From assembly GCA_030597245.1 (NCBI GenBank), contig JAUVSF010000002.1:1-35478 (forward strand): a stretch of DNA of 35,478 bases. Reading direction: 5' to 3'. A program made the position numbers and the translations under genes. The notes beneath the pieces were generated by a model. The model made no database searches. It was not told where the DNA came from and saw nothing but the letters and a program-made list of their open reading frames with translations. Source of the DNA: Acidobacteriota bacterium (lineage in GTDB: Bacteria > Acidobacteriota > UBA6911 > RPQK01 > JAPXNP01). Below, one piece after another: positions 4,625 through 25,340 of this stretch; positions within the stretch are counted from its first letter, which is position 1, and every line of letters starts with the position of its first letter.

Positions 4625-7207
4625 CTATGGTTCTCTGTGCTTTGGTGGTTTGAATGGTGCAGACAAGGCCCCTCGACGAAGGAACAGGGCGAAAACGCAG
4701 GCGAGGGCAAAGGCAAGGGAGAAGACGAAGGGGGCTAGCAAACTCTTCAGCGTGTTCTCCTGATACTTTTGCAGCTTTTTCCCGGGCCAGCCGACGTAGC
4801 AGATGCCGGCCCAGAAATATGGGTGCGACCCGGAGACTGTCTGGCCATTGCGTGGAAGCCGTCGCTTAACGAAACTGTTCCGAGCCAGGTACAGTGCCTC
4901 ATCCATCGGATGGCCCGAGAGGGAGTAACGATAGAAGTCGACGAAGATCTCAGCCGAAAGTTCATCCATTCCCCACCTGCTTGCTATCAAGGCTTGCGCT
5001 CCCTGAGCAAGGAAGAGCTCGGTTAACCCCAACCAGTAGGGAGAACCGGAATTATAGGCGTTTGCTGACTCGCACACTGCCAACGAAAGAAGTTGGCACT
5101 CAAATCCCTTCTTTACGAAGGCCATAAGATTGGTCCTCCTCGAGCCGTTCTGGAAGGCGGACGCCGGCCAGAATTCTGGATGCAGAGAAAAGTGGGTCGA
5201 GACATGTATCCACTGACCAGTAAGCTTTCCGGGTATGTCGAGGTTCTCGACTACTCGGAGACTGGGAGCGTATTGACGAAGGACTCTTCGCTCCATCTGC
5301 GCCCCTTGACGGATCGAAAACCCAGAAGGCAGCAGGAGTAGAGGCGCAGAGTCTACAGGTTTGGTTTCTTTGAATCGTTTGTCCGGATCGGGCAGGTAAC
5401 TGAGGATGCGCTTTTCACCCCAGCGGAGCCCGTCCGGGCAACGGAGTAACTCGAAGGGAATGATCTGGAGCTCTTTGTGAGGGATGAGAAGTATACGGCG
5501 GGTTGTGAGCAAGCGGTTCACTGGAGCAATGATTTCGGTGTAGAGACGGTCTGTTGGTGGAATCAGGGCGCTTGGGGACAGCGTAGATTGGTGGCCGTAG
5601 AAATACTCACAGATTCGCTGGGTGAGTGCTGCGGTATCTTCAGAGATTCGAAAAGAAATGTACTGAGTTCCCGTCGTAGATTCGATCCACGCATGGATCA
5701 GCCTTCCGTCGGGCCACATCTCGAGGATTGTAAAGCCGTCTTCGGCCGGGCCCGGTGTGTAATTGCTCAGGGCTTCCGGCCTCTGCGTCCGGGGTTGATT
5801 CGCTGCCCCGAGCTGTACCAATTGACTTAATTCGTCCTCTGCAGAGTCAATAGGTCCGCTGGAGCTGAGAACGTGTGTAGCGTTGACCCGTCTGCGGTAG
5901 CTGAGTTCCTGAATCTCTTTGCGGGCATATTCTTGTTCCCCCAGCTGGATCAGGCAACGGATCCATCCATCAAAGAGAGGTGAGACGGCTTGCCAGTATG
6001 GAAGAATTGATCCGTAATGCGCAGTGGAATCATCTTGCTTGAGGCCGCTTTGATAAGTCTCGGCTGCGTCCCGGTGCTGCCCTGCTTGCTCCATTGCCTT
6101 GCCCAAGAGGAAGTAAATTTCTCGGGAATAATAGGCCAGGTTGGCCTCCCGGCATCGTTCGAGTATTCGTCGGAGGCGGGTCATGTATTCTCGTAGATCC
6201 AGCTTCTCTCTCAGAAGTTTGGCGCGCAGCAAATCGCGCTCGATCCGGATTGATGCCTGAGTCACATCAACCCTATTCAGGATCTCGGGATCTCCAAGGA
6301 TCTCGGCCTGAGCCAGGTGGAACTCGTCGGGGGAAACGGCGGAGTGGATCGAGCATTGCTTTAGATGTTTGGCTGCTCTTAAGGAATCTCCTTTTCGATG
6401 CAGAAAGAGGGCGAAGTTTCGGTGGACGTGGAATCTCTGTTCGGAGAAGGCTGAAGGTCCCAGGTTCTGTAGGGCTCGGTGGTAACATTGTTCAGCCCGT
6501 TCGGTCATGCCGAGTTCTTCATACAGGGTGGCGAGATTGTTCCAGGCGTTGGTGATCCCCTCGGCGAAGTTGATTTGGTGCCATCGCTTCACCGCCTCCA
6601 AAAACGAAAGAATGCTGTTTTGAAGGTCGTCTAGAAACCATAGAGAGTAACCACGACTTTCATAAAGGAGGCCTGTGAGGTACGGCATTTTGGTTGTGTC
6701 GGTCCGCTCGAGTGCCTGGTTGATCCACTGGAGGCTAATGGAAAAGCTTTCCTCTTCTGCGTAGACTTCCCCGATCTGATAGGTACAGAAATGTGCTTCG
6801 GTTTCGGCGCCGTTGTTGAGAAATGCATCCCTCGCTTTCTTAAGAAGGGTGCGAGCGGTACGAAAGTCCCTACGTTCCCAATGTTCAATCGCTTTCTCGC
6901 GTACCCGCAAAGCGTTTCTCTGGCTGGTGGATTGGTGCCTGAGTCCGTCAAAGGAATGATCGCCTGTGATTTCCGCCAGATCATCGATGATCCTGGTGAC
7001 GTCCTGGCCCTGAGAAACCAGATCTCGAAGTCGCTTATGGGCAGCAGGCGGCGAAGAAACGTAGATCCGGGGCAGATCTCCGTGAGCCGACGTGGCCAGG
7101 GGCGAAGCTGCCAGAAAGGCAGGGAAGATCAACGAGAGGGCTAGACTCCCCATTCCGCAGCGCCACGGTTCGGCAGACACTTGTTTCGATGGACCATCCA
7201 GAGTCAT
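4625..7207 (-). CDS. Exported TPR-CHAT domain protein (caspase-like), C-terminal transmembrane segment
   Basis: N-terminal signal-like hydrophobic segment, TPR repeats, C-terminal CHAT region with HVSTHF and LSLAVCESANAY (His/Cys dyad candidates) and GAQALIASRWGMDELSAEIF; hydrophobic LLAPFVFSLAFALACVFALFL near C-terminus; ATGA overlap with upstream gene. Confidence 0.88.
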   Translation of the reverse strand: MTLDGPSKQVSAEPWRCGMGSLALSLIFPAFLAASPLATSAHGDLPRIYVSSPPAAHKRLRDLVSQGQDVTRIIDDLAEITGDHSFDGLRHQSTSQRNALRVREKAIEHWERRDFRTARTLLKKARDAFLNNGAETEAHFCTYQIGEVYAEEESFSISLQWINQALERTDTTKMPYLTGLLYESRGYSLWFLDDLQNSILSFLEAVKRWHQINFAEGITNAWNNLATLYEELGMTERAEQCYHRALQNLGPSAFSEQRFHVHRNFALFLHRKGDSLRAAKHLKQCSIHSAVSPDEFHLAQAEILGDPEILNRVDVTQASIRIERDLLRAKLLREKLDLREYMTRLRRILERCREANLAYYSREIYFLLGKAMEQAGQHRDAAETYQSGLKQDDSTAHYGSILPYWQAVSPLFDGWIRCLIQLGEQEYARKEIQELSYRRRVNATHVLSSSGPIDSAEDELSQLVQLGAANQPRTQRPEALSNYTPGPAEDGFTILEMWPDGRLIHAWIESTTGTQYISFRISEDTAALTQRICEYFYGHQSTLSPSALIPPTDRLYTEIIAPVNRLLTTRRILLIPHKELQIIPFELLRCPDGLRWGEKRILSYLPDPDKRFKETKPVDSAPLLLLPSGFSIRQGAQMERRVLRQYAPSLRVVENLDIPGKLTGQWIHVSTHFSLHPEFWPASAFQNGSRRTNLMAFVKKGFECQLLSLAVCESANAYNSGSPYWLGLTELFLAQGAQALIASRWGMDELSAEIFVDFYRYSLSGHPMDEALYLARNSFVKRRLPRNGQTVSGSHPYFWAGICYVGWPGKKLQKYQENTLKSLLAPFVFSLAFALACVFALFLRRGALSAPFKPPKHREP

Positions 7208-7902
7208 GGTTTGAGGACGCGCAATAATCCAGTACTTTCAACGGAAAATTCTTCTCCCCCCTCTTGCAGCGCTTCGAGCAACTTGATTGCTGAAGCTCTT
7301 TCGCCGTCTCTGAGTAGCAGATTGGCCATGTACCACTGTGAGGGGGACTTCCACCTAGGGTTCCTGGCTGCCTCCCGAAGGCGTGCCAACGCTTGGCTGG
7401 TGTTTCCTAGCAGATAGTGAGTCACACCCAGATAGAACGTTAGCTCCGGATCTTCGTCTCTAGCAACAAGGTTCTTGAGAATCGAGTTCGCTTTCAGGTA
7501 GTTTCCGGTGACATAGGCCTCGAATGCCGTTTCACGAAGTTTGTCGTTACTGGAATCCGTTCCGTCGGAACGCAACTCGAGTGGAAAATAGGGGTACGGC
7601 TCTGCAGCAGCGAAGCGCTCTCCCTCAACCAGCGGGGCGAAGTAGTAAGTAAGCGAAACCAGGCTAAAGATGAGTACAGCTGCAGCCGCCAGATACGTCC
7701 GAGGTCTAGGTTTCTTGGACTGATTCTCTATCTGGAACCGGGTTTCAAGGATGGCCATTACACGAATTCGTTCACGACAAATCTGGCATCCTTCCAGATG
7801 GCTGAGGACACCTTGTGTTTCGGGAGGTTCAAGTTCACCTCTCAAGAACTCAGCGAGCTTCAAATCTTCGCACATCATTGGGTTTTTCCTTTGTTTGTCC
7901 AA
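7204..7902 (-). CDS. Anti-sigma-factor-like zf-HC2 membrane protein with TPR-like C-terminal domain
   Basis: CEDLKLAEFLRGELEPPETQGVLSHLEGCQIC (HxxxCxxC zinc-binding motif), single TM TYLAAAAVLIFSLVSLTYYFAPLV, helical-repeat C-term; start may be the internal MMCEDL. Confidence 0.85.
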   Translation of the reverse strand: MDKQRKNPMMCEDLKLAEFLRGELEPPETQGVLSHLEGCQICRERIRVMAILETRFQIENQSKKPRPRTYLAAAAVLIFSLVSLTYYFAPLVEGERFAAAEPYPYFPLELRSDGTDSSNDKLRETAFEAYVTGNYLKANSILKNLVARDEDPELTFYLGVTHYLLGNTSQALARLREAARNPRWKSPSQWYMANLLLRDGERASAIKLLEALQEGGEEFSVESTGLLRVLKP

Positions 7903-8443
7903 ATCCTGAGACTCCTCGTTGCCGCAGGTATACTCGAATCAGGTCGATTCCCTGGAGCATGCGGCTGCGAAGAGTGGAGTAGGGAACACCCTGTTCCTGG
8001 CAGAACTCCTTCAGTTTCAGAGTGGATTCCCTTCGGAAGAACACCTCGACTGCTTCCCGTTGCTTCGGCTGTAGAGAACGCAATGCCATCTCGACCTCGT
8101 TAACCAGGTGGTTGTGCGTTTCTGCTTCCTCGTTTGTGAGTAGCAGGCTTAAGGGATCAGCCCCGATCTCAGCATATCTCTGGGTCTGGCGTTCACCATT
8201 TCGAGTATCGAATCTGGAATTTTGACGTTGCAGCCTTCGGTAAGTGTCGATGGAGGTGTTCAGGACTGCGCGGCGCAGGTAGTTGAAAGCTTCCTGCTGG
8301 TTGGCAAATCTCTTTCGGGTCCTCAGGACTCGCAAGAAGGCTTCCTGAAGAACATCCTCGACGCTGCTCGGATCGGATATGACTGCTCTGGCCATCGCAC
8401 GAAAGGCGCGTTTTTTCTCTTCCCACACATTTATGAGGGTCAA
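7850..8443 (-). CDS. ECF-type RNA polymerase sigma factor
   Basis: SSVEDVLQEAFLRVLRTRKRF (region 2) and LRSLQPKQREAVEVFFRRESTLKLKEFCQEQGVPYSTLRSRMLQGI (region 4 HTH). Confidence 0.92.
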   Translation of the reverse strand: MTLINVWEEKKRAFRAMARAVISDPSSVEDVLQEAFLRVLRTRKRFANQQEAFNYLRRAVLNTSIDTYRRLQRQNSRFDTRNGERQTQRYAEIGADPLSLLLTNEEAETHNHLVNEVEMALRSLQPKQREAVEVFFRRESTLKLKEFCQEQGVPYSTLRSRMLQGIDLIRVYLRQRGVSGFGQTKEKPNDVRRFEAR

Positions 8444-8510
8444 AGTAATGCTTATTCGCAGGATGGAAGGTCAGAGGCGTTAATAAAGAAGGTAGGAAAC
8501 CAACACGGAT

Positions 8511-8539
8511 AGCTTAGAAGGGGGTACGAACGTTGTCAA
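8511..8539 (-). promoter_or_regulatory. Candidate sigma-70-type promoter upstream of the ECF sigma operon
   Basis: On minus strand: TTGACA (8539-8534), 17-nt spacer, TAAGCT (8516-8511); about 60 nt upstream of the sigma start codon. Confidence 0.5.
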
Positions 8540-8820
8540 GGGGGCGAATTGCATTTCTGCGGCAAAGGGATTCGTTTTCGGTTCTGCTTTCACAGATTCG
8601 GAGATATATTCCCTACAGGCGATTTCGAATACTGTTGAACCTTCAGTTGGCTGGAGACAGATGGTTCGTTCGTCGGTACCTTCGGCCTGATTTCGAGATC
8701 ATCTGGGTTCAGGAGATGGAAAACTGGATCGACATCGCTTTCGATGCTCTCGAAGAGGGACGGAACATGATGCCGACTTTAAAGCGAATCGTTCACCTGT
8801 ACGGGCATCTTTTCAGATAA
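8533..8820 (+). CDS. Possible small hypothetical protein
   Basis: 95-aa ORF with plausible composition, weak TTG start overlapping the divergent promoter; no family recognised. Confidence 0.35.
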   Translation: MSRGRIAFLRQRDSFSVLLSQIRRYIPYRRFRILLNLQLAGDRWFVRRYLRPDFEIIWVQEMENWIDIAFDALEEGRNMMPTLKRIVHLYGHLFR

Positions 8821-8862
8821 CTCCCAATTCCCAACTCCCAACTCCCAATTCTCAATTCTCAG
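8821..8862. repeat. Heptanucleotide tandem repeat, 6 units of YTCYCAR
   Basis: CTCCCAA TTCCCAA CTCCCAA CTCCCAA TTCTCAA TTCTCAG, exact 7-nt period. Confidence 0.93.
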
Positions 8863-8975
8863 TTCGTCGTTCGCACTTCGATAAGCTCCCAGGGTCTTGA
8901 GGCTTGAAACCTGGCTGTTCTGTCGAATGGCCGGAGCTGAGTTGTCCTCTCTTTGGTCAAAACCCGAGAATTCAA

Positions 8976-9002
8976 ACCACCAGGACACCAAGAGCACCAA
9001 GG
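8976..9002. repeat. 9-mer repeat, 3 degenerate units (minus strand CTTGGTGNN family)
   Basis: ACCACCAGG ACACCAAGA GCACCAAGG; reverse complement contains CTTGGTGCT CTTGGTGTC CTGGTGGTT. Confidence 0.75.
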
Positions 9003-9026
9003 AAACACGGTTTTTGATATGAATCC

Positions 9027-9053
9027 CTTAGCAGCCTTTGCGAGCTTTGCGTG
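9027..9053. repeat. 9-mer repeat, 3 degenerate units (CTTTGCGNG)
   Basis: CTTAGCAGC CTTTGCGAG CTTTGCGTG. Confidence 0.7.
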
Positions 9054-9080
9054 AACCGTATTCCCCGCGTTTGTTTCCCC

Positions 9081-9115
9081 AATCGAAAATCGTCAATCGT
9101 CAATCGAAAATCCCA
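9081..9115. repeat. Heptanucleotide tandem repeat, 5 units of AATCGWM
   Basis: AATCGAA AATCGTC AATCGTC AATCGAA AATCCCA, exact 7-nt period. Confidence 0.9.
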
Positions 9116-9119
9116 GTCC

Positions 9120-9704
9120 CTACTTCCAGGAAACTGTGAGACCGCTGAGAAACCGTACACCATAGCTGTTACTTGAGCCCAGGTTATGAGACTTCACTTC
9201 GTTGATCCAGTTCAGGTGTGGAATCAGCTTCGTACGAATCCCTCCCCCGACCGTCCACACCCCATTTCGAGTGCTCTCTTTCCCCTGTTCCTCAAATCCT
9301 GGATAGCCATTCGGGTTGATGACCTGTCGGTTGTCCCAATGGGACCCTCCTCCGCCTTCCACAAATAAGCTGACGCGTTTGCGCCGAAGGAAATGAATCT
9401 GGAGGGTCACATCAACATATTGACGGTTACGGTCTTCCTCGCCTAGAAGGAAGGAATCTCTGGAGAAGGTGAAATCGTCACGGGGAAGGTAGGCCCACTC
9501 GCAGGAGACTGTCAGAAACTCAGTCGGCCACACATTGAGCCAAACTCCAAATTCAGGTCCAGTCTCCGTCCCCAGAACCGTCTCGTCGCCGATCACAGCC
9601 AATCCGATATGACCTCCGCCCTCCAGGTCGATGCCGTGAACCGAACCTCCTAGAGCCAGGAACAGACTTGCTGTTGCGAGTAGAAGCACTCGTGTCGAAT
9701 TCAT
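9120..9704 (-). CDS. Outer-membrane beta-barrel-like protein
   Basis: Signal peptide MNSTRVLLLATASLFLALGGSVHG, alternating beta-strand pattern, C-terminal LSGLTVSWK. Confidence 0.65.
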   Translation of the reverse strand: MNSTRVLLLATASLFLALGGSVHGIDLEGGGHIGLAVIGDETVLGTETGPEFGVWLNVWPTEFLTVSCEWAYLPRDDFTFSRDSFLLGEEDRNRQYVDVTLQIHFLRRKRVSLFVEGGGGSHWDNRQVINPNGYPGFEEQGKESTRNGVWTVGGGIRTKLIPHLNWINEVKSHNLGSSNSYGVRFLSGLTVSWK

Positions 9705-9793
9705 CAGCGAGAAGTCTACCACGGGGCGTTATCCGGATTGGATCTCATCCCAAATTGCTTTGTGTCTGCGCTGCGTACGATAATTGTGTCTCA

Positions 9794-10306
9794 ATGACAC
9801 AACAGATTAGTGCTATTTACCCAGGCTCCTTTGATCCGGTGACAAACGGGCATCTCGATATTATTGACAGGGGAAGGTCGATCTTTGACCGAGTGATAGT
9901 CGCCGTGTCGGTCAATCAGGACAAAAGCCCCATGTTTACGACCGAGGAGCGGATAGAGATGCTCCGCGATGTCACGAGGCAATGGGATAATGTTGAAATT
10001 GACCAGTTTGACGGACTCCTGGTGGGTTATGCGGCCTCAAGGGATGCTAGTGTAATCTTGAGAGGGATTCGTGCGGTTACTGATTTCGATTATGAGTTTC
10101 AGATGGCTCTCATGAACCGGCGCCTGGCAGGTGCAATTGAAACTGTCTTTTTGGTGCCGGCGGAGGCCTATGAATACTTGAGTTCTTCTCTTGTGAAGGA
10201 AGTGGCCTCGTTGGGAGGGTCAGTCAGCGGGCTGTTGCCTCCGCTCGTGGAGGAACTGCTTAGCGCGAAGCTCAAAGCTTTGAAAGATACGGACAGGGAA
10301 CTCTAA
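9794..10306 (+). CDS. coaD: Phosphopantetheine adenylyltransferase
   Basis: AIYPGSFDPVTNGHLDIIDR, RGIRAVTDFDYEFQMALMNR, SSSLVKEVASLGGSVSGLLPP; the ORF-track start at 9668 is probably too early. Confidence 0.96.
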   Translation: MTQQISAIYPGSFDPVTNGHLDIIDRGRSIFDRVIVAVSVNQDKSPMFTTEERIEMLRDVTRQWDNVEIDQFDGLLVGYAASRDASVILRGIRAVTDFDYEFQMALMNRRLAGAIETVFLVPAEAYEYLSSSLVKEVASLGGSVSGLLPPLVEELLSAKLKALKDTDREL

Positions 10307-11593
10307 ATGAAGGCCAATTGGAAGCTCCTTTGCTCGTTTGCAGCTGTTGTGGTGATTTGTGGATTGCTGACGCTCTCTTTCATCGACTTCGGGAAGGTTG
10401 ATTCTGGAGATGAGGAGGGTTTTGTCCTCAAGGATGGAGACTTTTTCGGCCCCAAGATTCCCCTTGAGTACCGGGTTGAGAGGGTAGAAGGCCAGTTCCC
10501 ACTCAATTCAACTTTGCAGGACTTCCTGTTCGACCATGGTTTCACTCCGTATGACGTTCACCAACTAATTCAGGGCACCCGGGACGTGCATGATCTCAAC
10601 CGGGTGGATGCAGGTCACCGAGTGGTCATCGAGACTTTCGGGGACGGGCGGTTCAGAAAGCTCGAGTATGACGTAGACGATGAGAAGTGTCTGGTTGTAA
10701 CTTCGAGTGGAGACCAGTATTCCGCTGAGATGAGGCGACGGGAACTCCATACTTCTCAGGAGAGAGTGTTCGGCAGGATCACGGAAAGCCTGTGGAACAC
10801 TCTGATTTCCCTTGGTGAGACTCCTGGACTGATTATGGGAATCATCGAGGTGATGCAGTGGGACGTCGATTTTACTGCTATTCAGCCTAACGACTCTTTC
10901 AAGCTCGTGTTTGAGAAGAAGTACCACGAAGGTGAGTTTGTGAAGTATGGAGAGATCCAATCTCTTCAGTTTCACCACGGCGGAAAGGACTTCTTTGCGT
11001 TCCTTTTTGAGGATCCGGTCACAGGGAAGAAGAAGTATTACGATTACGATGGGAAGGGTGTCAAGAAGGCGTTCCTGAAAGTTCCCTTCAAGTTTGATTA
11101 TCGAATTTCTTCAGGCTTTTCTCATTCGAGGTTCCATCCGGTAGTAAAGAAGCGGATGCCGCATTATGGGGTTGACTACGCGGCTCCTTACGGCACACCT
11201 GTACTAGCCTCTGCCAGTGGGCGAGTTGTCTTCGCCGGCTGGAAAGGAGCGAACGGGAAACTCGTCAAGATTCGGCACCCGAACAGGTACGTTACGTACT
11301 ACCTTCATCTTTCTAAGATTCTGGTCAAAGCGGGACAGAGTGTTGCCCAGGGCCAGGTGCTCGGACGAGTTGGCGCTACCGGGAGGACCACGGGACCACA
11401 TCTTGATTATCGGATTCAGGAAAGGAGTGGGCGCTTTATCAACCCTAAGAAGTATGTCTCCTTACCCTCCGATACGGGTGTTTCGAAGAAGCATATGGAT
11501 GAATTCATTGCGGTTCGTGACGCCTACCTTCGACAGCTGGATCAGATCCCGGAACAAGAACGAAGGTTTGGGAACCCTTCAGTTGCTGGCTGA
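10307..11593 (+). CDS. M23 family metallopeptidase (LytM-type murein endopeptidase)
   Basis: N-terminal TM, HYGVDYAAPYGTPVLASASGRVVFAGWKGANGKLVKIRH, YYLHLS, GATGRTTGPHLDYRI; TAA of coaD directly followed by ATG. Confidence 0.92.
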   Translation: MKANWKLLCSFAAVVVICGLLTLSFIDFGKVDSGDEEGFVLKDGDFFGPKIPLEYRVERVEGQFPLNSTLQDFLFDHGFTPYDVHQLIQGTRDVHDLNRVDAGHRVVIETFGDGRFRKLEYDVDDEKCLVVTSSGDQYSAEMRRRELHTSQERVFGRITESLWNTLISLGETPGLIMGIIEVMQWDVDFTAIQPNDSFKLVFEKKYHEGEFVKYGEIQSLQFHHGGKDFFAFLFEDPVTGKKKYYDYDGKGVKKAFLKVPFKFDYRISSGFSHSRFHPVVKKRMPHYGVDYAAPYGTPVLASASGRVVFAGWKGANGKLVKIRHPNRYVTYYLHLSKILVKAGQSVAQGQVLGRVGATGRTTGPHLDYRIQERSGRFINPKKYVSLPSDTGVSKKHMDEFIAVRDAYLRQLDQIPEQERRFGNPSVAG

Positions 11594-11743
11594 ACCTCAC
11601 TTTTCGATCCGAAACAATGATCGGGTTGTTTTGGTACGGCAATTGCTTAATCGATTCTCGGCTACTGGGTGGAGCTCCGGTTTCTCTAAACTGAATAGTC
11701 GGGGTTCGTACAGAGATCTAGTGTTTATTGGGTAGAAGAAAAC

Positions 11744-12607
11744 ATGTCGAGAAGTGCCTTACTTTTATATAACCCGAAAGCGGGTCGAGCAGCCCTGGGA
11801 GAAAAAGGGCTTGAAATGATTGTTGCGCGGTTGCGGGAGTGGGAGATTGATGCCGAGGTTCAACACTCGAGCAATGGCCAGAAGCGTAGGCTGAATCTAG
11901 CCGAGAAAGACCTCTTGATCGTTTGTGGTGGGGACGGCACCATCCACGACGCTTTACAGGATGCGATCGAGGCCGCTGTGCCGGTGGCGATCATTCCGGT
12001 TGGAACAGCCAACGTTCTGGCTCGAGAGTTATCGATTCCAAGAGATCCCTTGGCAGCCCTGCAAGTCTTGCGAACTGGAAGGACGAGGAAGCTTCATCTG
12101 GGTAAGGCTGACGACAAGTATTTCCACCTGATGGCAGGCGTGGGCCTCGATGGTTATCTCCTGCGTCAGGTCGGTCCATCGCTGAAGCGTTTCCTGGGAG
12201 TGGGAGCCTTCTGGCTCACAGGCTTTTTTCGATTTTGGAGCTACTCACTGCCCGTCTTCCAAGTCAAGATTGGCGAAGAACTGCACACTGCTACCTTTGC
12301 CGTGGTTTCGAATTCTCGTTTTTATGGCGGCCATCTGCGTGTCACTCCGCACGCGAACGTGTTCGACGATACGCTGGATGTGTGTCTGTTCAGTGCTAGA
12401 AGCCATTTCCGTTACCTGATGTACCTGTGGGGCAGTCTCCGGGGTAAACATCTGAATTACCCTGATGTCGTTTATCGAAAGACCCGAAAGTTAGAGGTGA
12501 CTGGTGGATCCAGAATAGCTGTGCAGCTGGATGGTGAGTTGGCAGGCACTCTCCCGCGGCATTTCGAAATGGCGGGCGAAACTCTGGAGGTGTTCGTGCC
12601 TGGCTAA
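11744..12607 (+). CDS. Diacylglycerol kinase family lipid kinase (YegS/DagK-like)
   Basis: LLLYNPKAGRA, LLIVCGGDGTIHDAL, IIPVGTANVLARELSIP, LQLDGE-like AVQLDGEL. Confidence 0.9.
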   Translation: MSRSALLLYNPKAGRAALGEKGLEMIVARLREWEIDAEVQHSSNGQKRRLNLAEKDLLIVCGGDGTIHDALQDAIEAAVPVAIIPVGTANVLARELSIPRDPLAALQVLRTGRTRKLHLGKADDKYFHLMAGVGLDGYLLRQVGPSLKRFLGVGAFWLTGFFRFWSYSLPVFQVKIGEELHTATFAVVSNSRFYGGHLRVTPHANVFDDTLDVCLFSARSHFRYLMYLWGSLRGKHLNYPDVVYRKTRKLEVTGGSRIAVQLDGELAGTLPRHFEMAGETLEVFVPG

Positions 12608-12657
12608 CCCTCTGAACTATCCCTTCGAGCATCGAACCGATCTGCGTAAACACCTTT

Positions 12658-12700
12658 CAAGACTCAAGACCCAAGACTCAAGACTCGAGACCCCGAGACC
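12658..12700. repeat. Heptanucleotide tandem repeat, about 6 units of CAAGACY
   Basis: CAAGACT CAAGACC CAAGACT CAAGACT CGAGACC then (C)CGAGACC. Confidence 0.9.
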
Positions 12701-12706
12701 TGTTCT

Positions 12707-13264
12707 TCAGTAACGCTTGCGACGCGCTTCTCGCTTTCCCATGAGTTCAATCTTGAGCACTGCATAGTCCTGGTGAAGGTCAGGGCTTTCAAAATTGACC
12801 TGGTTTATCCTCTGGGCAAGTGCTTCAAATGCGAGACAGTCGATTCGTTCGAGGGTGAATCGGTTGTTTCCCAAGTCGATCGATACCTCTTTCAGTTCGC
12901 TATAGCCTTCGAAGTCTCCTTTCAAGTCCAAGCCTATGAAACTCTCCCCGTGGACCTTCAGGTATTGGACGACATAAGGTTCTCCGGGAACTCCTGTGTC
13001 GATTGAGAACTTCTCTACCTCGGCTTCCCGCCGCCGGCTCTTGACGAGGTGAATCTGCTCCGGGCGCAGATCCCACTCGCCGTCACTGAATGTGATGATG
13101 TTTAGTATAGGGGTAGGGTTTCCCCCGGCACCTTTAATCATTTCCAGGGTCCAGATGAAGTCGTAGTCGATGAAAACGTGGCAGGCCGAAAGTTCCGGCG
13201 GAGGCAACTGGGTTGCCCACAGGGGGTTGTTGAGTAGTAGGACCAGAAAGAGGTTTTTCTTCAT
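12707..13264 (-). CDS. Secreted hypothetical protein
   Basis: Signal-like N-term MKKNLFLVLLLNNPLWATQ; overlaps the stop of pyrF by ATGA. Confidence 0.6.
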   Translation of the reverse strand: MKKNLFLVLLLNNPLWATQLPPPELSACHVFIDYDFIWTLEMIKGAGGNPTPILNIITFSDGEWDLRPEQIHLVKSRRREAEVEKFSIDTGVPGEPYVVQYLKVHGESFIGLDLKGDFEGYSELKEVSIDLGNNRFTLERIDCLAFEALAQRINQVNFESPDLHQDYAVLKIELMGKREARRKRY

Positions 13265-13998
13265 TTTGGAAATTCGGCTGTTCCGATCTCGTTCAGGATG
13301 ACCTCAGCGGCCTCGACTGGATCCGGGGTTCCCGTTATTGGGCGCCCCACAACGAGATAACTTGCGCCCGCAGCGATTGCCTCGGCAGGCCCTTTCACCC
13401 TGGCCTGGTCGTCGGTATTACTGCCGGATGGACGGATTCCAGGGGTAACGAAGAATAGGCGCTTGAACTTCTCTTCTCCCAGGCGTCCCAGTTCGAGCGG
13501 AGAACAAACAATTCCGTCAATACCTGTTTTCTCTGCCAGGCGGGCGAGGCTGACCACAAGATTCTCGACCGTACACCCGAATCCGAGTTGATTGATGTCG
13601 AGCTGGCTGAGGCTGGTTAGCACTGTTACACCCAACAGATAAGGACCTGCTTTGCTGGTTGACTGTGTCCATTCGTCGACGGTTTCTTTTGCCCCGCGCA
13701 GCATATTTGGACCACCAGAAGAGTGCAGCGTCAGCATGTGCACTCCAAGTTTGCAGGCTTCAAGAACAGCTTTCGAGACCGTGTTAGGAATGTCGTGCAG
13801 TTTGAGATCCAGGAAGACCCTGCAATCTTCGGCTTGGATTTTTTCAACGATCCGGGGGCCTGTCGCAGTGTAGAGCTGGAGCCCCACCTTGAACACACCG
13901 ACGTGGTTGCGCAAAGTCTGCACCAGTTCCAGCGCTTCGTCTGCAGTAGGAACATCGAGGGCTACGATTAAGCGTTGGCGCGGGTCAATTGGGTTCAT
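13261..13998 (-). CDS. pyrF: Orotidine 5'-phosphate decarboxylase
   Basis: RLIVALDVPTADEAL, VFLDLKLHDIPNTV, VTPGIRPSG, YLVVGRPITG; internal ATG start preferred over the 14091 start. Confidence 0.95.
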   Translation of the reverse strand: MNPIDPRQRLIVALDVPTADEALELVQTLRNHVGVFKVGLQLYTATGPRIVEKIQAEDCRVFLDLKLHDIPNTVSKAVLEACKLGVHMLTLHSSGGPNMLRGAKETVDEWTQSTSKAGPYLLGVTVLTSLSQLDINQLGFGCTVENLVVSLARLAEKTGIDGIVCSPLELGRLGEEKFKRLFFVTPGIRPSGSNTDDQARVKGPAEAIAAGASYLVVGRPITGTPDPVEAAEVILNEIGTAEFPK

Positions 13999-14103
13999 TT
14001 GATTCCTCCGCTCGGGTCTGCCCTGCCTTTTGTGCTCGTTGTCTGAAGCATGGCCTGCAGTTGAAATGCACTGCACGAATGATTGGGTCAACCTCCGGTT
14101 TGC

Positions 14104-15051
14104 TCAGTAGTATACGAAATCGCCCTCTTCGATGGGCCGAAACGATCCAATAATATCGTCAATATCGGAGACGCCCTCTTTCACACAATGTTCCCTGAGT
14201 CCCTCAACGATTCTTGCCGCGGCTGATGGGTCAACGAAATTTGCCGTGCCGACCTGGACTGCTCTCGCGCCGACAATTAGAAACTCGAGGGCATCTCGTA
14301 CAGTGCTGATGCCGCCGATTCCAATCACTGGGATATCCACAGCTTGAACTGTCTGGTACACCAACCTGACGGCGAGGGGGCGGATCGCGGGCCCCGATAG
14401 GCCGCCGGTCGTGTTGGACAGCATGGGACGCTTCTTGTGTACATCTACAACCATTCCTACAAAGGTGTTCACGAGTGTAATAGCGTCGGCACCGGCCTGT
14501 TCACAAGCCCGGGCGAACACGGTAATGTCGGTGACGTTCGGAGACAGTTTGACCCACACCGGCTTCTCGCTCACCGAAGAAACCGCTTGGACGACTCGGT
14601 GAGTCATCTCGGGATCGTGGCCAAACTGTACACCGCCTTCTTTGATATTGGGACAGGAGATGTTCAGTTCGTAGGCCGCCACCTTTGGGTGGGGGTTAAG
14701 TTTCTCGGTGAGAGCTACAAACTCTTCAATGGTTTTTCCGAAGATATTAGCGATTACGAGACAGTCGAAACCCTCGAGCAAGGGAAGTTTCTCTGCAATG
14801 AAACAGTCAACTCCGACGTTCTCGAGGCCAATGGCGTTCAACATCCCCGAAGGTGTTTCCGCAATCCGTCCCGGAGCATTTCCTTTCATGGGATGCAAAG
14901 AGAGGCCTTTGGTACAGAAACCACCGAGTTCGGATATGTCAAAGAAGTCGGCGAATTCCAAACCATACCCAAAGGTGCCCGAGGCCGTAAGAACGGGGTT
15001 CTTGAAACGGAGTCCCGATATCTCGACAGACAAATCCACTTCAGGAAGCAT
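14104..15051 (-). CDS. pyrD: Dihydroorotate dehydrogenase B, catalytic subunit
   Basis: NPVLTASGTFGYGLEF, ELNISCPNIKEGGVQFG, GIGGISTVRDALEFLIVGARAVQVGTANF. Confidence 0.95.
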   Translation of the reverse strand: MLPEVDLSVEISGLRFKNPVLTASGTFGYGLEFADFFDISELGGFCTKGLSLHPMKGNAPGRIAETPSGMLNAIGLENVGVDCFIAEKLPLLEGFDCLVIANIFGKTIEEFVALTEKLNPHPKVAAYELNISCPNIKEGGVQFGHDPEMTHRVVQAVSSVSEKPVWVKLSPNVTDITVFARACEQAGADAITLVNTFVGMVVDVHKKRPMLSNTTGGLSGPAIRPLAVRLVYQTVQAVDIPVIGIGGISTVRDALEFLIVGARAVQVGTANFVDPSAAARIVEGLREHCVKEGVSDIDDIIGSFRPIEEGDFVYY

Positions 15052-15056
15052 TTGTT

Positions 15057-15929
15057 TTACCTAGCAGAGTCGCTCTCCCATACAAAACTAGCACCGTCGA
15101 ACACCGGACCGTGGGTGCACGCCAAGCGGTATGAATCAAGTGTTTTCACGGCGCACCCTAGACAGACACCGAAGCCGCAAGCCATCTTTGACTCCACCGA
15201 AATCTGGCAGGGTATTTCCTGAGATCTTGCCACGACCGTGACTGCCTCCATCATTGCATTTGGACCACAGGTACAGAGGTTGATGTGCTCCGTCGGGACT
15301 TTACTTGAATATTCCTGGAAGCCCTGTGTTACCAGGCCCTGGTATCCAAGGCTGCCATCTTCGGTGGTAACAAAAACCGGAATTCCAAGCTTCTTGAAGT
15401 CGGCCAGTCCAATTAGATGATCGGCCGACTTGCCCCCATACACGAGGTGCACTTCTTCACCCCAGCGGTACCACTTCTCAGCCAGAAGATACACGGATGC
15501 AATACCAGTCCCCCCAACGACGAGGAGATTGATCTTACCCTTGCCCCGGTTCAAGTCGAAACCGTTTCCCAGAGTGCCCACGAGATCCAGATATTCACCC
15601 GTCCTGACTGAGTTCAATCGCCGCGTTCCCTCGCCCACAATCTTCACCAGAAAAGTCACGATCGAAGGTTGGCCATCTTCGGGGTGGACTGAATAGACAG
15701 CGAGTGCTCTTTTCAGCAGCGGAACAGGAGCCGCGCCGCGATCCGCGACCGCGACCATCACGAATTGACCAGGCAGCACTGATTGGGCTATCTCGGGGGC
15801 CCTGACCGCCAAAATGAAGCTGTCATAAGGGTACTGTCGATTCTCGACTACCGGAACCTTGATGCTGACCACAGCGACAGAATAGCATAGCCCTCGAGGG
15901 TCTGCAGCAGATCTGGATAAGGGGCACAA
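15057..15929 (-). CDS. pyrK: Dihydroorotate dehydrogenase B, electron transfer subunit
   Basis: FAD/NAD-binding reductase pattern, C-terminal ESKMACGFGVCLGCAVKT...YRLACTHGPVFDG cysteine cluster; N-terminal start uncertain. Confidence 0.92.
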   Translation of the reverse strand: MCPLSRSAADPRGLCYSVAVVSIKVPVVENRQYPYDSFILAVRAPEIAQSVLPGQFVMVAVADRGAAPVPLLKRALAVYSVHPEDGQPSIVTFLVKIVGEGTRRLNSVRTGEYLDLVGTLGNGFDLNRGKGKINLLVVGGTGIASVYLLAEKWYRWGEEVHLVYGGKSADHLIGLADFKKLGIPVFVTTEDGSLGYQGLVTQGFQEYSSKVPTEHINLCTCGPNAMMEAVTVVARSQEIPCQISVESKMACGFGVCLGCAVKTLDSYRLACTHGPVFDGASFVWESDSAR

Positions 15930-16006
15930 AGGGCCACATTCGATCGATCATCAAAGCTTTTTTCTTTGGCCATTTTTCGCTATTATCCCATGCAGGAATT
16001 CAAAGT

Positions 16007-16567
16007 ATGGGAATTAAGTTTCTTCGTCGTCTCATGAAACCGCGGGAGATGGATCTGGCGCTCTCCAGAATAGCTGCGGAAATTATCGAGGACCATGCCG
16101 ATCTCTCCGACGTTGTACTGATTGGAATCCGACGGCGGGGTATTCCACTGGCCGAGATTCTCAAAGACAAGATTAAACGACTCTCGGGGAACGAGCTGCC
16201 CTTGGGTATTCTGGATATAACTTTCTACCGTGATGATCTAACTCTTGTTGACACACAGCCTGTGGTGGAAGGGTCCCACCTCGATTTTGGGGTAGACGGT
16301 AAAGCGGTACTTCTTGTCGATGATGTTTTGAACACAGGGAGGACAACCAGGGCCGCTCTGGAAAGCGTGATCGACTATGGAAGACCGAGGAAAGTGGAGT
16401 TGGTGGTTCTGGTGGATCGTGGGCATCGAGAGTTGCCGATTCAGGCAGACTACGTAGGGAAGCATGTCGAGACTGCGGAAGATGAGGTTGTAGAGGTCAG
16501 GGTGCCCTCAATCGATGGGGAAGAGGGAGTGTTTCTCACCACCCCGGAACTGCTGAAGGGCACCTGA
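16007..16567 (+). CDS. pyrR: Bifunctional pyr operon regulator / uracil phosphoribosyltransferase PyrR
   Basis: VLIGIRRRGIPLAEIL, LDITFYRDDL, VLLVDDVLNTGRTTRAALE, VLVDRGHRELPIQADYVGKH. Confidence 0.95.
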   Translation: MGIKFLRRLMKPREMDLALSRIAAEIIEDHADLSDVVLIGIRRRGIPLAEILKDKIKRLSGNELPLGILDITFYRDDLTLVDTQPVVEGSHLDFGVDGKAVLLVDDVLNTGRTTRAALESVIDYGRPRKVELVVLVDRGHRELPIQADYVGKHVETAEDEVVEVRVPSIDGEEGVFLTTPELLKGT

Positions 16568-16653
16568 TCTGAGTTATAGGGGGTACTGTTCCAAAATCAG
16601 AGGTGACTGGCTGAGCCAGTTGTCCTCTATTCTCTCAGGGGACGAGTAATTGT

Positions 16654-17592
16654 ATGCCTTTAAGTGGTAAGAATCTGTTGGGTATCGCCGGTCTTCCCGT
16701 CTCAGATGTCAGACTGATACTGAACACGGCCAGGAGCTTCCGAGAGATCTCCTCCCGGGCAATCAAGAAGGTTCCCACGCTGCGTGGACGCACCGTGATC
16801 AACCTGTTTTATGAACCTTCGACGCGAACACGATCTTCGTTTGAGATCGCGGCAAAGAGGCTCAGTGCGGACTCTCTCAACTTCAGCGCTTCAAGCAGCA
16901 GCGTCTCCAAAGGAGAAACTCTGATCGACACTGCCTTGAATCTACAGTCGATGAACCCCGACATTATCATCATTCGACACAAAGCTGCAGGAGCTCCCCA
17001 TTTGCTGGCAAAACATTGTAGGGATTGTGCGGTGATCAACGCGGGTGATGGGATGCATGAGCATCCGACTCAGGCTCTCCTGGATGCTCTCACAATAGAA
17101 GACAAGAAGGGAAAACTCGAAGGGCTGAAAGTCTCGATCGTGGGGGACATCACACATAGCAGGGTGGCTCGTTCGAATGCTCTCCTGCTGAAAAAGATGG
17201 GCGCAGACGTCTGGATCTGTGGGCCACCAACGTTGATACCGCTCGATTTCGAGCAGTATGACGTGACAGTCACGTACGACATGCTCGAAGCCCTCAGCGG
17301 TGCAGACGTTGTCATGATGCTGCGCACGCAGCTGGAACGTCAGCAGGAAGTCTTCTTCCCGTCCGTTAAGGAGTACTTCTCACTGTACGGACTCAACCGG
17401 AAGAAGCTTTCGGCGGCCAAAAAGGACGTCATCGTCATGCACCCGGGACCGATTAACCGGGGGGTCGAGATCGACCCGGAGATTGCAGACGGGGACGTTT
17501 CGGTGATTTTGGAGCAGGTGACCAACGGAGTCGCCGTGCGAATGGCTATTCTCTACCTGATTCTCGGGGCTAGCGAGGAAGGTTCGAAATGA
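16654..17592 (+). CDS. pyrB: Aspartate carbamoyltransferase catalytic subunit
   Basis: [57 protein letters not shown]. Confidence 0.96.
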
Positions 17593-18869
17593 CAATCTTG
17601 CTCAAAGGGGGCGAAGTCGTAGATCCGGCCCAGGATCTTAAGAAGAAAGCGGATGTTCTCCTGGAGAAAGGACGTGTAGCCAAACTGGGCCGGATAGGGG
17701 CTCAGGAGGGATGGCGTGTAGTTGATGTCTCAAGCATGTACGTAATGCCGGGTCTTATCGATATGCATGTTCATTTGAGAGAGCCGGGCCAGGAATACAA
17801 GGAAACCATTGAAACCGGCTCGCGAGCCGCTGTCGCAGGAGGGTTCACAAGCATAGCCTGCATGCCCAATACGGAACCGGTCAACGATTGCGAAGCGATT
17901 ACCAGGTACATCCTCGAAAAGGGACGCCAGGCGAACCTGGTCAACATTCACCCTGTTGGTGCCATTACCAAGGGATTGAATGGTATGGAGTTGGCAGAGA
18001 TAGGTGAGATGGTCCGAACTGGTGCCGTCGCCATCAGCGATGACGGCAAGCCTGTTCAGAACAACCAGATCATGCGTCGGGCAATGGAGTACTCACGGAT
18101 TTTCGACGTGCCTGTACTGGACCACTGCGAGGACTGTGATCTTGCGGCTCATGGGGTAATGAACGAAGGAACTGTTTCGACCGAACTCGGCCTGCGGGGG
18201 ATGCACGCAGTTGCCGAAGAACTGCAGGTGGTTCGTGACATCATGTTGTCTCGCCTTACCGGAACCCGGGTACATATTTGCCATATCTCGTCTGAAGAAG
18301 CTCTGAACGCAATCCGTGAAGCCAAGGCCAAAGGACTGAAAGTAACTTGTGAGGTCGCGCCGCACCATTTCACGTTGACGGATGAAAATGTGAGGACCTA
18401 CGACCCAGACTTTAGGATGAATCCTCCGCTTCGGACCGGTAGAGATGTTGAGGCGATGATATCGGGTCTTGCGGATGGCTCCATCGACTGTATTGCTACG
18501 GATCATGCACCGCACGCCCGGATCGACAAAGACTTGACCTTTGAGGACGCGGCCAACGGTGTGATCGGACTTGAGACTTCGGTTCCGCTGGTCTGGGAGC
18601 ACCTGGTGCGAAAGGACGTCATTTCAGTCTCCCGAATGGTCGAGCTGATGAGCCTGAATCCGAGCCGGATTCTGGGGTTAGATCGCGGAACATTGAAAGT
18701 TGGTTCAGTTGCGGATGTGACCGTGATCGACCCTGATAAGGAGATCACGGTAGATGCGTCCCAGTTCGAATCGAAAGCTCGAAACTGTCCGTTTGATGGC
18801 TGGCAGCTCCATGGGTGCCCAGTTCTTACGATTGTAAAGGGTCGCGTCGTCTGGAATCGTCTCTCTTGA
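17589..18869 (+). CDS. pyrC: Dihydroorotase
   Basis: [69 protein letters not shown] overlap with pyrB. Confidence 0.96.
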
Positions 18870-19047
18870 AGAGTCACCGGTTGTTCGGTCAAGCTCTGCG
18901 ATTGTAAACTGTGCCCTCCTGGTTCAATCGTAAGGAGCTCCTTGCTCAGTGAGTTGACGGATGCAGGCCCAAAAGGGACATGTCGTCTACCCTGTAGCAT
19001 GGTCGCCTTTATGGAAACCTTCTTATTTGTTTGGTCGTCCTAAGGTC

Positions 19048-20985
19048 ATGATGAAAGCGCTATTGAGGCTACTGGTATGCTTCTTGGTCTTTCCCCTTGC
19101 CATTGGGGTCTCGTTCGGGCAGGGCCAGATCCGCTTTAAACTGTTGGAAAGTGGGCAGGAAGTGCCGGTCGGGGGTAGCTTCAATGTAACGCTCCGGGCT
19201 GAGATATCCAGGGGATGGCACCTTTATTCCATGGAAGTACTGCCTGGAGGGCCCATTCCCACCACGATAACGGTCCAGGAAGATGCAATCTTCGCACCAG
19301 CCGGGGACCCTCAGGAGCCGACGCCTATCCCCTGGTTCGATCGAAATTTCGATATGCAGACGAACTACTTCAAGGACAGTGTGGATTTCGATGTCCCCGT
19401 TCTGGTGAAGGCCTCTGCTGCGCCGGGGGATCATGAGCTGTCTGTAAAAGTCAGGTTTATGCTCTGCAACGATTCGTCTTGTCTTCCGCCTCAAACGAAG
19501 ACCGTTCGCCGCTTTGTACCTGTAATCGAGGGGGAAGGCATTCCAGCGGCTTTGCCGATTCCAGGTCCGGGCGGTCCGTCAGGGGACAACCTTCAGCGTG
19601 ACAGTGCAGGCACCACCGAGCCGACGTCAGTCGAGTCCGCTCTGCCCATTCCCAAGGAGGGCGGGGCTCTTCCTGTGATCGCCTACGTCTGGTTTGCGAT
19701 GACCATGGGGGCCTTGGCACTTCTGACTCCCTGTGTGTTCCCGATGATCCCCATAACGGTGTCGTACTTCACGAAACGTAATGCCAAGAGCCGCAAACAG
19801 GCGGTGTTTGAGGCTGGACTCTATTCGGTTGGGATCATCGCTACGTTCACGTTGCTTGGATTCCTGCTGACGTTTCTTTTTGGAGCGGGTGGAATCAACC
19901 GGTTGGCAGCCAGCCCGCTCGTAAACATTTTCATTGCTGCTGTTTTCGTAATCTTTGCCCTCAGCCTTTTCGGAGTTCTCGAGTTAACGCTACCCAGCAG
20001 CTGGCTCAGCGCGGTTAACCGGAAGTCCTCCGAGACAACAGGAGTGCTCGGTATCCTGTTGATGGCGCTCACTTTTTCACTGACTTCCTTCACATGTACC
20101 GTTCCCTTCGTAGGGACAGTGATGGTTGCCGCGTTGAGTGGGGAAGGTTTTGGCTGGTCTTTGCTCGGGGTAACTGCTTTTGCCACTGTTTTTTCCCTCC
20201 CGTTCTTTCTTTTGGCTCTCTTTCCGTCGTGGCTTCAGAACCTTCCCAAGAGTGGGAATTGGATGAACTCGGTGAAGATCACGATGGGATTCCTTGAGTT
20301 GGCGGCTGCTCTGAAGTTTGCCAGCAATGTGGACCTGGTCTTCCAATGGGAGCTACTCACACGGCCTGTCTTCATTACTGTTTGGCTTGCCATTGGAATT
20401 GTGATCACTGCATATCTGCTTGGCTGGTTTAGATTCCCGCATGAGACGTTGGTCGAGTCCGTGGGCGCATTTCGAGTCCTTTTCGCGGTGTTTTTCCTGG
20501 CTGTGTCACTTTATCTACTCAGAGGTTTGTTCGGATTCTCTCTGGGAGAGTTAGATGCATTTCTCCCTCCTCGGGACTACGGCGCTGTCAGTGAAGGGGC
20601 GTTTCTCACGTCGTCAGGGCGGGGTGCGGAAGAAAGGTGGCTTTCGGATTATGCTTTGGCCTTGGAACGCGCCAAGGCTGAGAATCGACCCATATTCGTG
20701 GATTTCACTGGGTATACGTGTACCAATTGTCGTTGGATGGAAGCGAATGTTTTTACCTTGCCGGAGGTCCAGAAACTCCTCAATGAGTTTGTTCTGGTGC
20801 GCCTGTACACGGACGGGGGCAAACCGGTTCACGAGCAAAACATGCAGCTGGAACGGGATAGGTACAAGACCGTTGCACTGCCGTTCTATGCGATTGTGGC
20901 TCCCGATGACAGTACGATAGCTACGTTTCCAGGGTTGACGAGGAATCCGCAGGAATTTATAGAGTTTCTAAAAAAGGGGTTGTGA
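19048..20985 (+). CDS. Thiol:disulfide interchange protein DsbD-like
   Basis: N-terminal DsbD-alpha-like domain, multi-TM core with TPCVFPMIPITVSYF, C-terminal thioredoxin FTGYTCTNCRWME; start at the internal ATG before a signal peptide. Confidence 0.9.
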   Translation: MMKALLRLLVCFLVFPLAIGVSFGQGQIRFKLLESGQEVPVGGSFNVTLRAEISRGWHLYSMEVLPGGPIPTTITVQEDAIFAPAGDPQEPTPIPWFDRNFDMQTNYFKDSVDFDVPVLVKASAAPGDHELSVKVRFMLCNDSSCLPPQTKTVRRFVPVIEGEGIPAALPIPGPGGPSGDNLQRDSAGTTEPTSVESALPIPKEGGALPVIAYVWFAMTMGALALLTPCVFPMIPITVSYFTKRNAKSRKQAVFEAGLYSVGIIATFTLLGFLLTFLFGAGGINRLAASPLVNIFIAAVFVIFALSLFGVLELTLPSSWLSAVNRKSSETTGVLGILLMALTFSLTSFTCTVPFVGTVMVAALSGEGFGWSLLGVTAFATVFSLPFFLLALFPSWLQNLPKSGNWMNSVKITMGFLELAAALKFASNVDLVFQWELLTRPVFITVWLAIGIVITAYLLGWFRFPHETLVESVGAFRVLFAVFFLAVSLYLLRGLFGFSLGELDAFLPPRDYGAVSEGAFLTSSGRGAEERWLSDYALALERAKAENRPIFVDFTGYTCTNCRWMEANVFTLPEVQKLLNEFVLVRLYTDGGKPVHEQNMQLERDRYKTVALPFYAIVAPDDSTIATFPGLTRNPQEFIEFLKKGL

Positions 20986-21027
20986 ACGTCTGGAGTGGAC
21001 AGGTTCGGAGTCTGCGTTCGAGGAATG

Positions 21028-21333
21028 TTACTTGCGGTCCCGCTTGGGGATCGTCACTATGATATCTCCGGGACGCGCCAGATTGTAGTACTCGCGGGCA
21101 AGGCGCTCAATCTCATACGGGTCGTTCCTTAGCCGATTGATTCTTAAGCGGAGCTCCTTTTGGGACTCGCGTAATCGGAGGTTCTCCAGCTGCAGCTCCC
21201 TCAATTCCGCTCGGTATTCTCTCAGCTTGAAGTAGCCGCCTTGGCCAAAGACCAGGAAGTAGGTAAAGGAGAGACAGCCAGTGAGCAGGAAAATCAAGAT
21301 AATCTCTCTTCTTGCCTTACGACTTATTTCCAT
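21028..21333 (-). CDS. Septum formation initiator family protein (FtsB/DivIC-like)
   Basis: Short protein: one TM followed by coiled coil and PYEIERLAREYYNLARPGDIIV motif. Confidence 0.85.
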   Translation of the reverse strand: MEISRKARREIILIFLLTGCLSFTYFLVFGQGGYFKLREYRAELRELQLENLRLRESQKELRLRINRLRNDPYEIERLAREYYNLARPGDIIVTIPKRDRK

Positions 21334-21350
21334 TTTAGAAGGAGTCTAAC

Positions 21351-21686
21351 ATGTCCGAAACCAGAATCATCTTGTCAACCGTTGATGGCCAATCCAAAGC
21401 GGAGGAGATTGCCGAGAGCCTGGTCTCAGAAAGACTGGCAAGCTGTGTCAATATCCTCCCCCAAATCGTTTCGGTCTACCGCTGGAAGGGGCAGATCGAA
21501 AAGGAGCCGGAAACCCTGTTAATTATAAAAACCCGCGGTGACAGGGTCGATGAAGGGATTAGTCGGGTTGTCGAGATTCACCCTTACGACGTTCCTGAGG
21601 TGATTTCCCTGCCCATCGAGAAGGGACACCAGCCCTATCTGGACTGGGTACTAGCCGAAACCGCTACGCAGGGAGGTAATCGGTGA
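21351..21686 (+). CDS. cutA: Divalent-cation tolerance protein CutA
   Basis: LASCVNILPQIVSVYRWKGQIEKEPETLLIIKT, HPYDVPEVISLPI; TGA stop lies inside a heptamer array. Confidence 0.94.
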   Translation: MSETRIILSTVDGQSKAEEIAESLVSERLASCVNILPQIVSVYRWKGQIEKEPETLLIIKTRGDRVDEGISRVVEIHPYDVPEVISLPIEKGHQPYLDWVLAETATQGGNR

Positions 21687-21737
21687 TCGGTGATCGGTGA
21701 TCGGTAAACGGTTATCGGTAATCGGTAATCGGTGACC
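21675..21737. repeat. Heptanucleotide tandem repeat, 9 units of GGTNATC
   Basis: GGTAATC GGTGATC GGTGATC GGTGATC GGTAAAC GGTTATC GGTAATC GGTAATC GGTGACC. Confidence 0.96.
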
Positions 21738-21768
21738 AGTAGTAAGAAGCAAGAAGGCCACGTATTCT

Positions 21769-21795
21769 CTTGGTGACCTTGGTGACCTTGGTGAC
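21769..21795. repeat. 9-mer tandem repeat, 3 perfect units CTTGGTGAC
   Basis: CTTGGTGAC x3, between two inverted heptamer arrays. Confidence 0.93.
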
Positions 21796-21817
21796 TTTGT
21801 GGTTAGCCCTCTTAACC

Positions 21818-21852
21818 GATAACTGATCACCGATAACGGATGACCGATCACC
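21818..21852. repeat. Inverted heptanucleotide array, 5 units of GATNACC (reverse complement of GGTNATC)
   Basis: GATAACT GATCACC GATAACG GATGACC GATCACC. Confidence 0.93.
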
Positions 21853-22708: not shown

Positions 22709-22726
22709 ATGGATTCCAATCTTGTC

Positions 22727-23512: not shown

Positions 23513-23620
23513 AACCAGACCCGAGTACCAGCGCGAGCTCGAAGCTCGAGTGCGCCAAATTGCCCCATGCCTTCGTAACTTCGGAAGTTGGGACGTAATA
23601 CAGAGGGGGGAATATATCAG

Positions 23621-24979: not shown

Positions 24980-25048
24980 TGGGGCAAGAATCCTTTCTGA
25001 ATTCGGGAAGGCAGTTGTCAGGAAGGGAATGTGGGAACGAAAAAGTGC

Positions 25049-25222: not shown

Positions 25223-25340
25223 GAGCACCTCCAATCTCTACCTGATCATACGCTGTTGCTTTCAGCACTGTCAAACCAGGACAGGGTTGAGGCATTCGCG
25301 CTGTAGAGGTTTCTAAGTCCGTTGAAATACCCGGTTCCAG

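Follow-up and report, generated by a model that had tools for sequence, protein, structure and literature searches.

The spacer at positions 8821–9115 of the Acidobacteriota DNA analysed here (the window; 35,478 nucleotides, contig JAUVSF010000002.1 of assembly GCA_030597245.1) lies between two convergent genes and is packed with short tandem repeats, which raises the question of what kind of element, if any, these repeats make up. The original prediction saw a composite of heptamers, 9-mers and heptamers, and suggested a class of modular elements that conserve their period and not their unit. The assembly comprises 5.33 Mb in 748 contigs, and genome statistics were taken from stretches of it, namely a 304 kb unbiased sample and 242 kb chosen by matches. 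The features of the window referred to below are as follows.

8533–8820, plus strand: conserved 95-aa ORF with no Pfam family; the repeat island starts directly after it
8821–8862, plus strand: heptamer array 1, six YTCYCAR units (sequence reading, TRF)
8863–8880, plus strand: short heptamer run of TTCGTCG/TTCGCAC, TTCGTCGTTCGCACTTCG
8892–8974, plus strand: dispersed block alpha, core CCGGAGCTGAGTYGTCC...AACCCGARAATTCAA
8975–9002, plus strand: nonamer arm ACCACCAGG-ACACCAAG-AGCACCAAGG, three CACCAAG steps; the minus strand reads CTTGGTGCTCTTGGTGTCCTGGTGGTT
9000–9034, plus strand: shortened loop, GGAAACACGGTTTTTGATATGAATCCCTTAGC, from a different dispersed element of the nonamer-hairpin kind, aligning with a longer loop in L066, L075, L104 and L080
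9036–9053, minus strand: two CTTTGCGNG units, one arm of a second nonamer subfamily that uses CACGCAAAGNNCGCAAAG
9081–9115, plus strand: heptamer array AATCGAA, AATCGTC, AATCGTC, AATCGAA and a degenerate AATCCCA
9120–9722, minus strand: ORF convergent with 8533–8820, no Pfam hit (a beta-barrel gene in the original prediction)
12657–12691, plus strand: solo heptamer array, TCAAGAC five times
21675–21854, unstranded: second island, with a GGTRATC array, a nonamer block and an inverted ACCGATN array
21769–21802: nonamer block of the second island, CTTGGTGAC three times...GTGGTT
25290–25668, plus strand: MITE-like element with TIRs AGGCATTCGCGCTGTAG / AGCCAATCGCGCTGTGG
25341–25398: TGACAAA array inside that element
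25283–25289 and 25669–25675: 7-bp duplication AGGGTTG flanking it

The original prediction was mostly right about what the spacer holds, and the pattern exceeds chance. The six YTCYCAR heptamers are present at about 8821–8862 (in order CTCCCAA, TTCCCAA, CTCCCAA, CTCCCAA, TTCTCAA and TTCTCAG; TRF calls period 7 over 8822–8858), as is the three-step CACCAAG-type block at 8975–9002, whose 9-mer family occurs also at 21769–21802. The second 9-mer has two full units and not the three that were counted, and four of the five AATCGWM heptamers are exact (9081–9108), the fifth being degenerate. The run at 8863–8880, whose heptamer families recur at other genome sites, had not been listed. The spacer is convergent as described: the plus-strand ORF is kept in the sister species (L029/L091) with a 3-nt in-frame indel, and the minus-strand gene ends at 9120. 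Elsewhere in the window, one minus-strand row at 4625–8443 comprises a CHAT/TPR protein, a zinc-finger/TPR protein and a sigma-70 region 2 protein; a 70-bp tandem repeat at 63–226 (GACGACCTGGAAGGTCATCCTCCCGGAAGATAAGCTTCCAGCTTGTCACTC) has further, scattered copies in the genome sample (depth 8), and a 36-bp repeat at 30768–30989 lies within the coding frame of a Glu/Lys-rich protein and is repeated in the sister contig.

Autocorrelation over 8821–9119 against Markov shuffles gave z = 6.05 at lag 7 and z = 5.11 at lag 14, compared with z = 0.98 at lag 9. The 7-mers are therefore significant at the locus itself, and the 9-mers only as a genome-wide family, which had 15 sites in 304 kb against one after shuffling. 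Folding of the locus yielded no hairpin (z +1.8), and Rfam returned no matches over positions 8000–26000 of the window. Neither TIR, target duplication nor empty site was found at 8821–9115, which is mostly common to the sister species, and its nonamer copy is a half-element only. By itself the locus is not one intact element.

Tandem arrays scoring at least 14 were counted at periods 1 to 30 in the 304 kb of content-blind contigs. There were 20 arrays of period 7, two of period 8 and none at the other periods from 1 to 13, while arrays of longer period fell mainly at multiples of 7; ten Markov-2 randomisations of these contigs contained no arrays at periods 7, 8 or 9. In this shuffle comparison, which the original prediction had named as its refuting test and which was run on samples, the period-7 arrays lie far above the nulls. 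In the sister species (G001, of the same genus and the closest relative compared), two samples held 35 and 22 period-7 arrays, densities that are not unbiased as both samples were chosen by matches. Sorted by unit, the arrays make up about ten families unlike in sequence (TTGGGAR, GTCTTGR, CGGTRAT, TGACAAR, CGGCATC, CGAACGA, CGATTKT, AGTAAGT, CGAAGTG and CGAANNT), and some arrays switch from one family to another in register. With one dominant period across the genome and about ten families of unit, a class with conserved period and variable unit sequence is supported for the heptamers. The nonamers stand outside it: they are a separate hairpin or half-hairpin family and keep a conserved sequence frame, which is more than a second period.

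Most of the listed arrays (52 of 66, all of period 7 apart from one of period 9) lie outside predicted ORFs, which cover 87% of bases. The proposed enrichment in convergent spacers is weak, amounting to 13 of 43 arrays with genes on both sides, where convergent pairs make up 17% of all gene pairs (P = 0.024, on crude gene calls), and other arrays were found between divergent and co-directional genes. The expected co-occurrence of 9-mers with 7-mer arrays is suggestive, with 4 of 10 nonamer sites co-located against 2.2 expected in one count and 8 of 27 against 4.7 in another (P about 0.06 each). Two candidate properties of the arrays were set aside. On inspection G runs are confined to some heptamers (GGGTCTT, TTGGGAR), so a G-quadruplex is not a shared property; an origin as relics of a 7-bp target duplication is unsupported, as the duplications seen match none of the array families.

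Heptameric SSR or STRR arrays have been described from cyanobacteria, Xanthomonas (GGGAATC) and Beggiatoaceae (TAACTGA), and in many genomes heptamers are reported to outnumber the other classes of long SSR (PMC4692102, PMC4679880). The arrays found here resemble them in being intergenic 7-bp tandem units above chance at many loci, with several heptamers per genome in some of those species. They differ in that about ten families share one genome, and in that the arrays fill slots of mosaic elements beside nonamer hairpins, where the slot unit can switch.

One arm of the nonamer family reads ACCACCAAG, (R)CACCAAG, (RN)CACCAAG, and its complement returns after a loop (CRCNAAG-type tandem pairs were listed). 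The present genome (G000) carries 49 arms and five hairpins, most arms having no partner. A generalised pattern, ACCAMNRAGRNCACNRAGRNCACNRAG, matched in 25 of 149 genomes across the phylum, with none of its reversed control among the matches listed for the 149. The N and R letters are lineage-specific (CACAGAG in G140 and G116, CACGAAG in G065, CACAAAG in G077, CACGGAG in G033 and CACCAAG in G000), and across 16 aligned hairpins from several genomes and viral contigs, 10 of 25 pairs show double changes, mostly at the variable N and R positions. The full nonamer form is a hairpin whose arms vary by lineage and covary across Acidobacteriota. A query of named phages and plasmids with the hairpin gave no matches. 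Viral contigs gave many, although a second arm lay within 150 bp at just 13 of 102 sites, some matches were coding-type repeats such as (ACCACCGAG)n, and exact matches to the nonamer-plus-linker composite described below were absent from them; viral carriage is not counted as proven in view of the few paired arms and the coding-type repeats. Many of the viral contigs L171–L250 show a single arm such as ATTTAACCACGGAGGACACGGAGARCACGGAGG, usually with no partner arm within 150 bp.

Block alpha (core CCGGAGCTGAGTYGTCC...GARAATTCAA) was found at five places when copies of 8881–9060 were aligned. Outside the window it occurs in C252, C585, C36 and G001:C153, behind heptamer arrays that are not all alike; the preceding runs are GTCTTGR in three copies and CGAACGA in C252. 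The copies diverge beyond the nonamers that they have in common, with the change falling at or just after the 9-mers. There, both the window and C252 enter the loop start of another nonamer-hairpin element; C252 then switches to the linker CGAAAGACAGGACAATCTTTAC and to CAAGACC heptamers, and the window to the second nonamer subfamily and to AATCGWM. A coarse left-by-right table of nonamer neighbours likewise showed mixed pairings, and together with the copy alignments this places the arrays at or near module joints. A 69-bp nonamer-plus-linker query had 36 matches in the genome, from which a composite was read with the order CGGTRAT slot, GAAGATTTACCACCAAGGCACCAAGNACACCAAG, AAAATGTCACCC...GGGACAATCTTTAC, slot 2, CTTCGCTCTTCGAGCTACGGAGGACAGGTCCGGC, ACTTGTC slot and CTGGTACCCGGTACTTCAACGGACTC, some parts of which are missing in some copies. 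Slot 2 is mostly occupied by CGGCATC and otherwise by CAAGACC, GGCACCC, GGTATCC, TGACATT, TTCGTCG or an 8-mer. Among 28 testable copies, the sequence downstream of the linker was a period-7 array in 14 and a period-8 array in four, compared with 1% of random windows. Where the slot usually filled by CGGCATC holds an array made up wholly of a one-letter variant (GGCACCC or GGTATCC), a single unit has apparently been amplified on the spot.

The composites of the original prediction turned out to be mosaics drawn from several dispersed families, including at least one with TIRs and a target duplication. This family has the ends AGGCATTCGCGCTGTAG...CGCGATTGGCT with a 7-bp duplication, and five copies of 379–727 bp retain both ends. 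The duplication is exact in two of the five, 6/7 in a third and not clear in the other two. In the L344 copy the TIR ends enclose a nonamer block together with two heptamer arrays. The copy at 25290–25668 is a reduced relative of the slot-bearing composite on the opposite strand, and the sister species lacks its sequence at the corresponding position. With TIRs, a target duplication, multiple copies, no gene found inside and an empty sister-species site it resembles a MITE, from which it differs in its internal heptamer slots and nonamer blocks; the 8821–9115 locus differs further in having no TIR or target duplication of its own. A search of 38 genomes from the class placed these elements in this genus alone; a genome from a distant family gave 21 matches, nearly all owing to the TGACAAA heptamers of the element.

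A second dispersed family of ~190 bp has CGAANNT heptamer arms and ends such as TTTGAGCAACAGACCC (L064:1081–1279, L064:8802–9010 and L062:16998–17189). The sister species lacks two of these copies at the orthologous sites, although its genome has more than 20 matches. A clean large indel was also seen, with 1.6 kb of G000 (L064:3512–5117) missing between bases 2139 and 2142 of G001:C404.

Comparison of orthologous sites showed species-specific islands, with pieces of 200–380 bp missing from the sister species. An Acidobacteriota MAG containing JAUWTT010000292.1 has 88% DNA identity to the window. The sister species has kept the general layout of the 8.8 kb island: array 1 has fewer and more degenerate units, the CTTTGCG nonamer block has exactly one 9-bp unit fewer, and the last array (the AATCGWM site) carries substitutions. 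The middle of the 21.7 kb island is entirely different. Few orthologous arrays were compared, and the changes in them were of heptamer copy number, with the one exact loss of a nonamer unit. As its layout is common to both species, the 8.8 kb locus predates the species split and has changed by units and by module replacement.

We regard 8821–9115 as probably a non-coding mosaic of dispersed modules tolerated in a convergent gene spacer, in which slippage arrays would double as exchange joints. The heptamer arrays, of many different units, would lengthen, shorten and become locally uniform through slippage that favours steps of 7 bases; the nonamer blocks would be arms of a small REP-like hairpin element, and the pieces of unique sequence would derive from dispersed non-autonomous elements, some with TIRs, target duplications and arrays inside. 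As short stretches of shared sequence, the arrays may then act as joints at which modules are swapped between elements, giving heptamer/9-mer/heptamer layouts with changing contents. Recombination at the arrays as the means of shuffling is inferred from the mosaics; growth by slippage and the absence of a selected function are probable in the same reading. Against this reading stand the two of five TIR copies with no clear duplication, the marginal co-location of 7-mers and 9-mers in the unbiased sample, and the stems of G030. That genome, of another Acidobacteriota family, contains long stems, perfect or nearly so, in which a single heptamer array makes up the two arms, the heptamer varying by site (GAGTGCT, AAATTGA, CAGACCG and GAATTGA; L303:4427–4560, 5879–5960, 7033–7160 and 11018–11105, L304:19117–19250 and L306:4223–4320); three of them fold at z -9 to -13, and octamer versions exist (L305:16795). 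Simple slippage of one array does not explain such same-heptamer arms, and inverted duplication or fold-back copying has to be added.

The same stems bear on two other explanations. If the islands were selected cis-elements, namely bidirectional terminators or 3'-end protectors of convergent mRNAs whose stems are built by the repeats, then the very stable stems of G030, the covarying stems of full nonamer elements and the moderate excess of arrays in convergent spacers would all be accounted for. We nevertheless consider this unlikely, because the locus itself fails to fold, most arms of this genome are partnerless half-elements, arrays also lie in divergent and co-directional spacers, the sister species differ in what their islands contain, and Rfam is empty over the region searched. 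The patchwork has the look of a novel type of mosaic repeat in bacteria, and not of a gene switch. A dedicated system working in 7-nt steps (a polymerase, a terminal repeat-adding enzyme or a 7-bp-staggered transposase) that writes arbitrary heptamer arrays would suit the strict period with its diverse units, the different heptamers in the same slot, the complementary paired arms with site-specific heptamers in G030 and the 7-bp target duplication of the TIR family. We find it improbable all the same, given that earlier work proposed a general polymerase-slippage bias towards 7 nt in bacteria (recounted in PMC4679880), which would account for the period with no dedicated enzyme, that the duplicated heptamers (AGGGTTG, CTGGTGA) lie outside the array families, that period-8 arrays exist too and that no candidate gene was found. 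The broader form of this idea, a 7-nt-step activity working inside mosaic and palindromic elements across Acidobacteriota, in which the step (and the pairing of arms in palindromes) is inherited and the unit sequence is free, is held to be just as doubtful.

REP and REPIN elements come with RAYT transposases (PMC3733652, PMC3116915), and the nonamer element is, like them, a short extragenic palindrome in many copies. Its arms differ in consisting of three 9-bp steps with the lineage-tuned frame CAC-N-R-AG, and the family has no consistent RAYT partner. That RAYT/IS200-type (Y1) transposases move the nonamer hairpins as ordinary REPs would fit their form and copy number, as well as the one Y1 gene of G000 (C520), which has a 9-mer site about 1.7 kb away. 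PF01797 is, however, absent from G077, G116 and G117 despite their 45, 18 and 4 pattern matches, and the Y1 loci of G000 contain no arrays; a Y1/RAYT transposase was accordingly rejected as the general mover, and we give this explanation very little credence.

BIMEs and the intergenic mosaic elements of Neisseria are mosaics of short dispersed modules in spacers. The combination of shared modules in different ways at different loci is a likeness between these and the islands described here, whose modules differ in being joined by 7-mer and 9-mer arrays, with no E. coli REP core identified. The 7-mer bias and interspersed mosaic elements are known as such; what appears to be undescribed is the combination of arrays with mosaic elements, and the lineage-tuned nonamer hairpin. 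An exact-string literature search for the nonamers returned nothing relevant, though papers beyond its reach are possible, and we found no description of a widespread hairpin family that keeps the CAC--AG frame while its other letters covary and are tuned to the lineage.

The seven-base preference of long tandem repeats in bacteria has been noted for years, and slippage has been proposed as its cause, with no test found in the literature. In the dispersed element, one slot holds different heptamers across tens of copies, which serve as natural replicates, and the sister species supply pairs of sites before and after change. Taken together with the heptamer-armed stems of G030, the slot replicates and sister pairs make models of slippage, copying and exchange directly testable.
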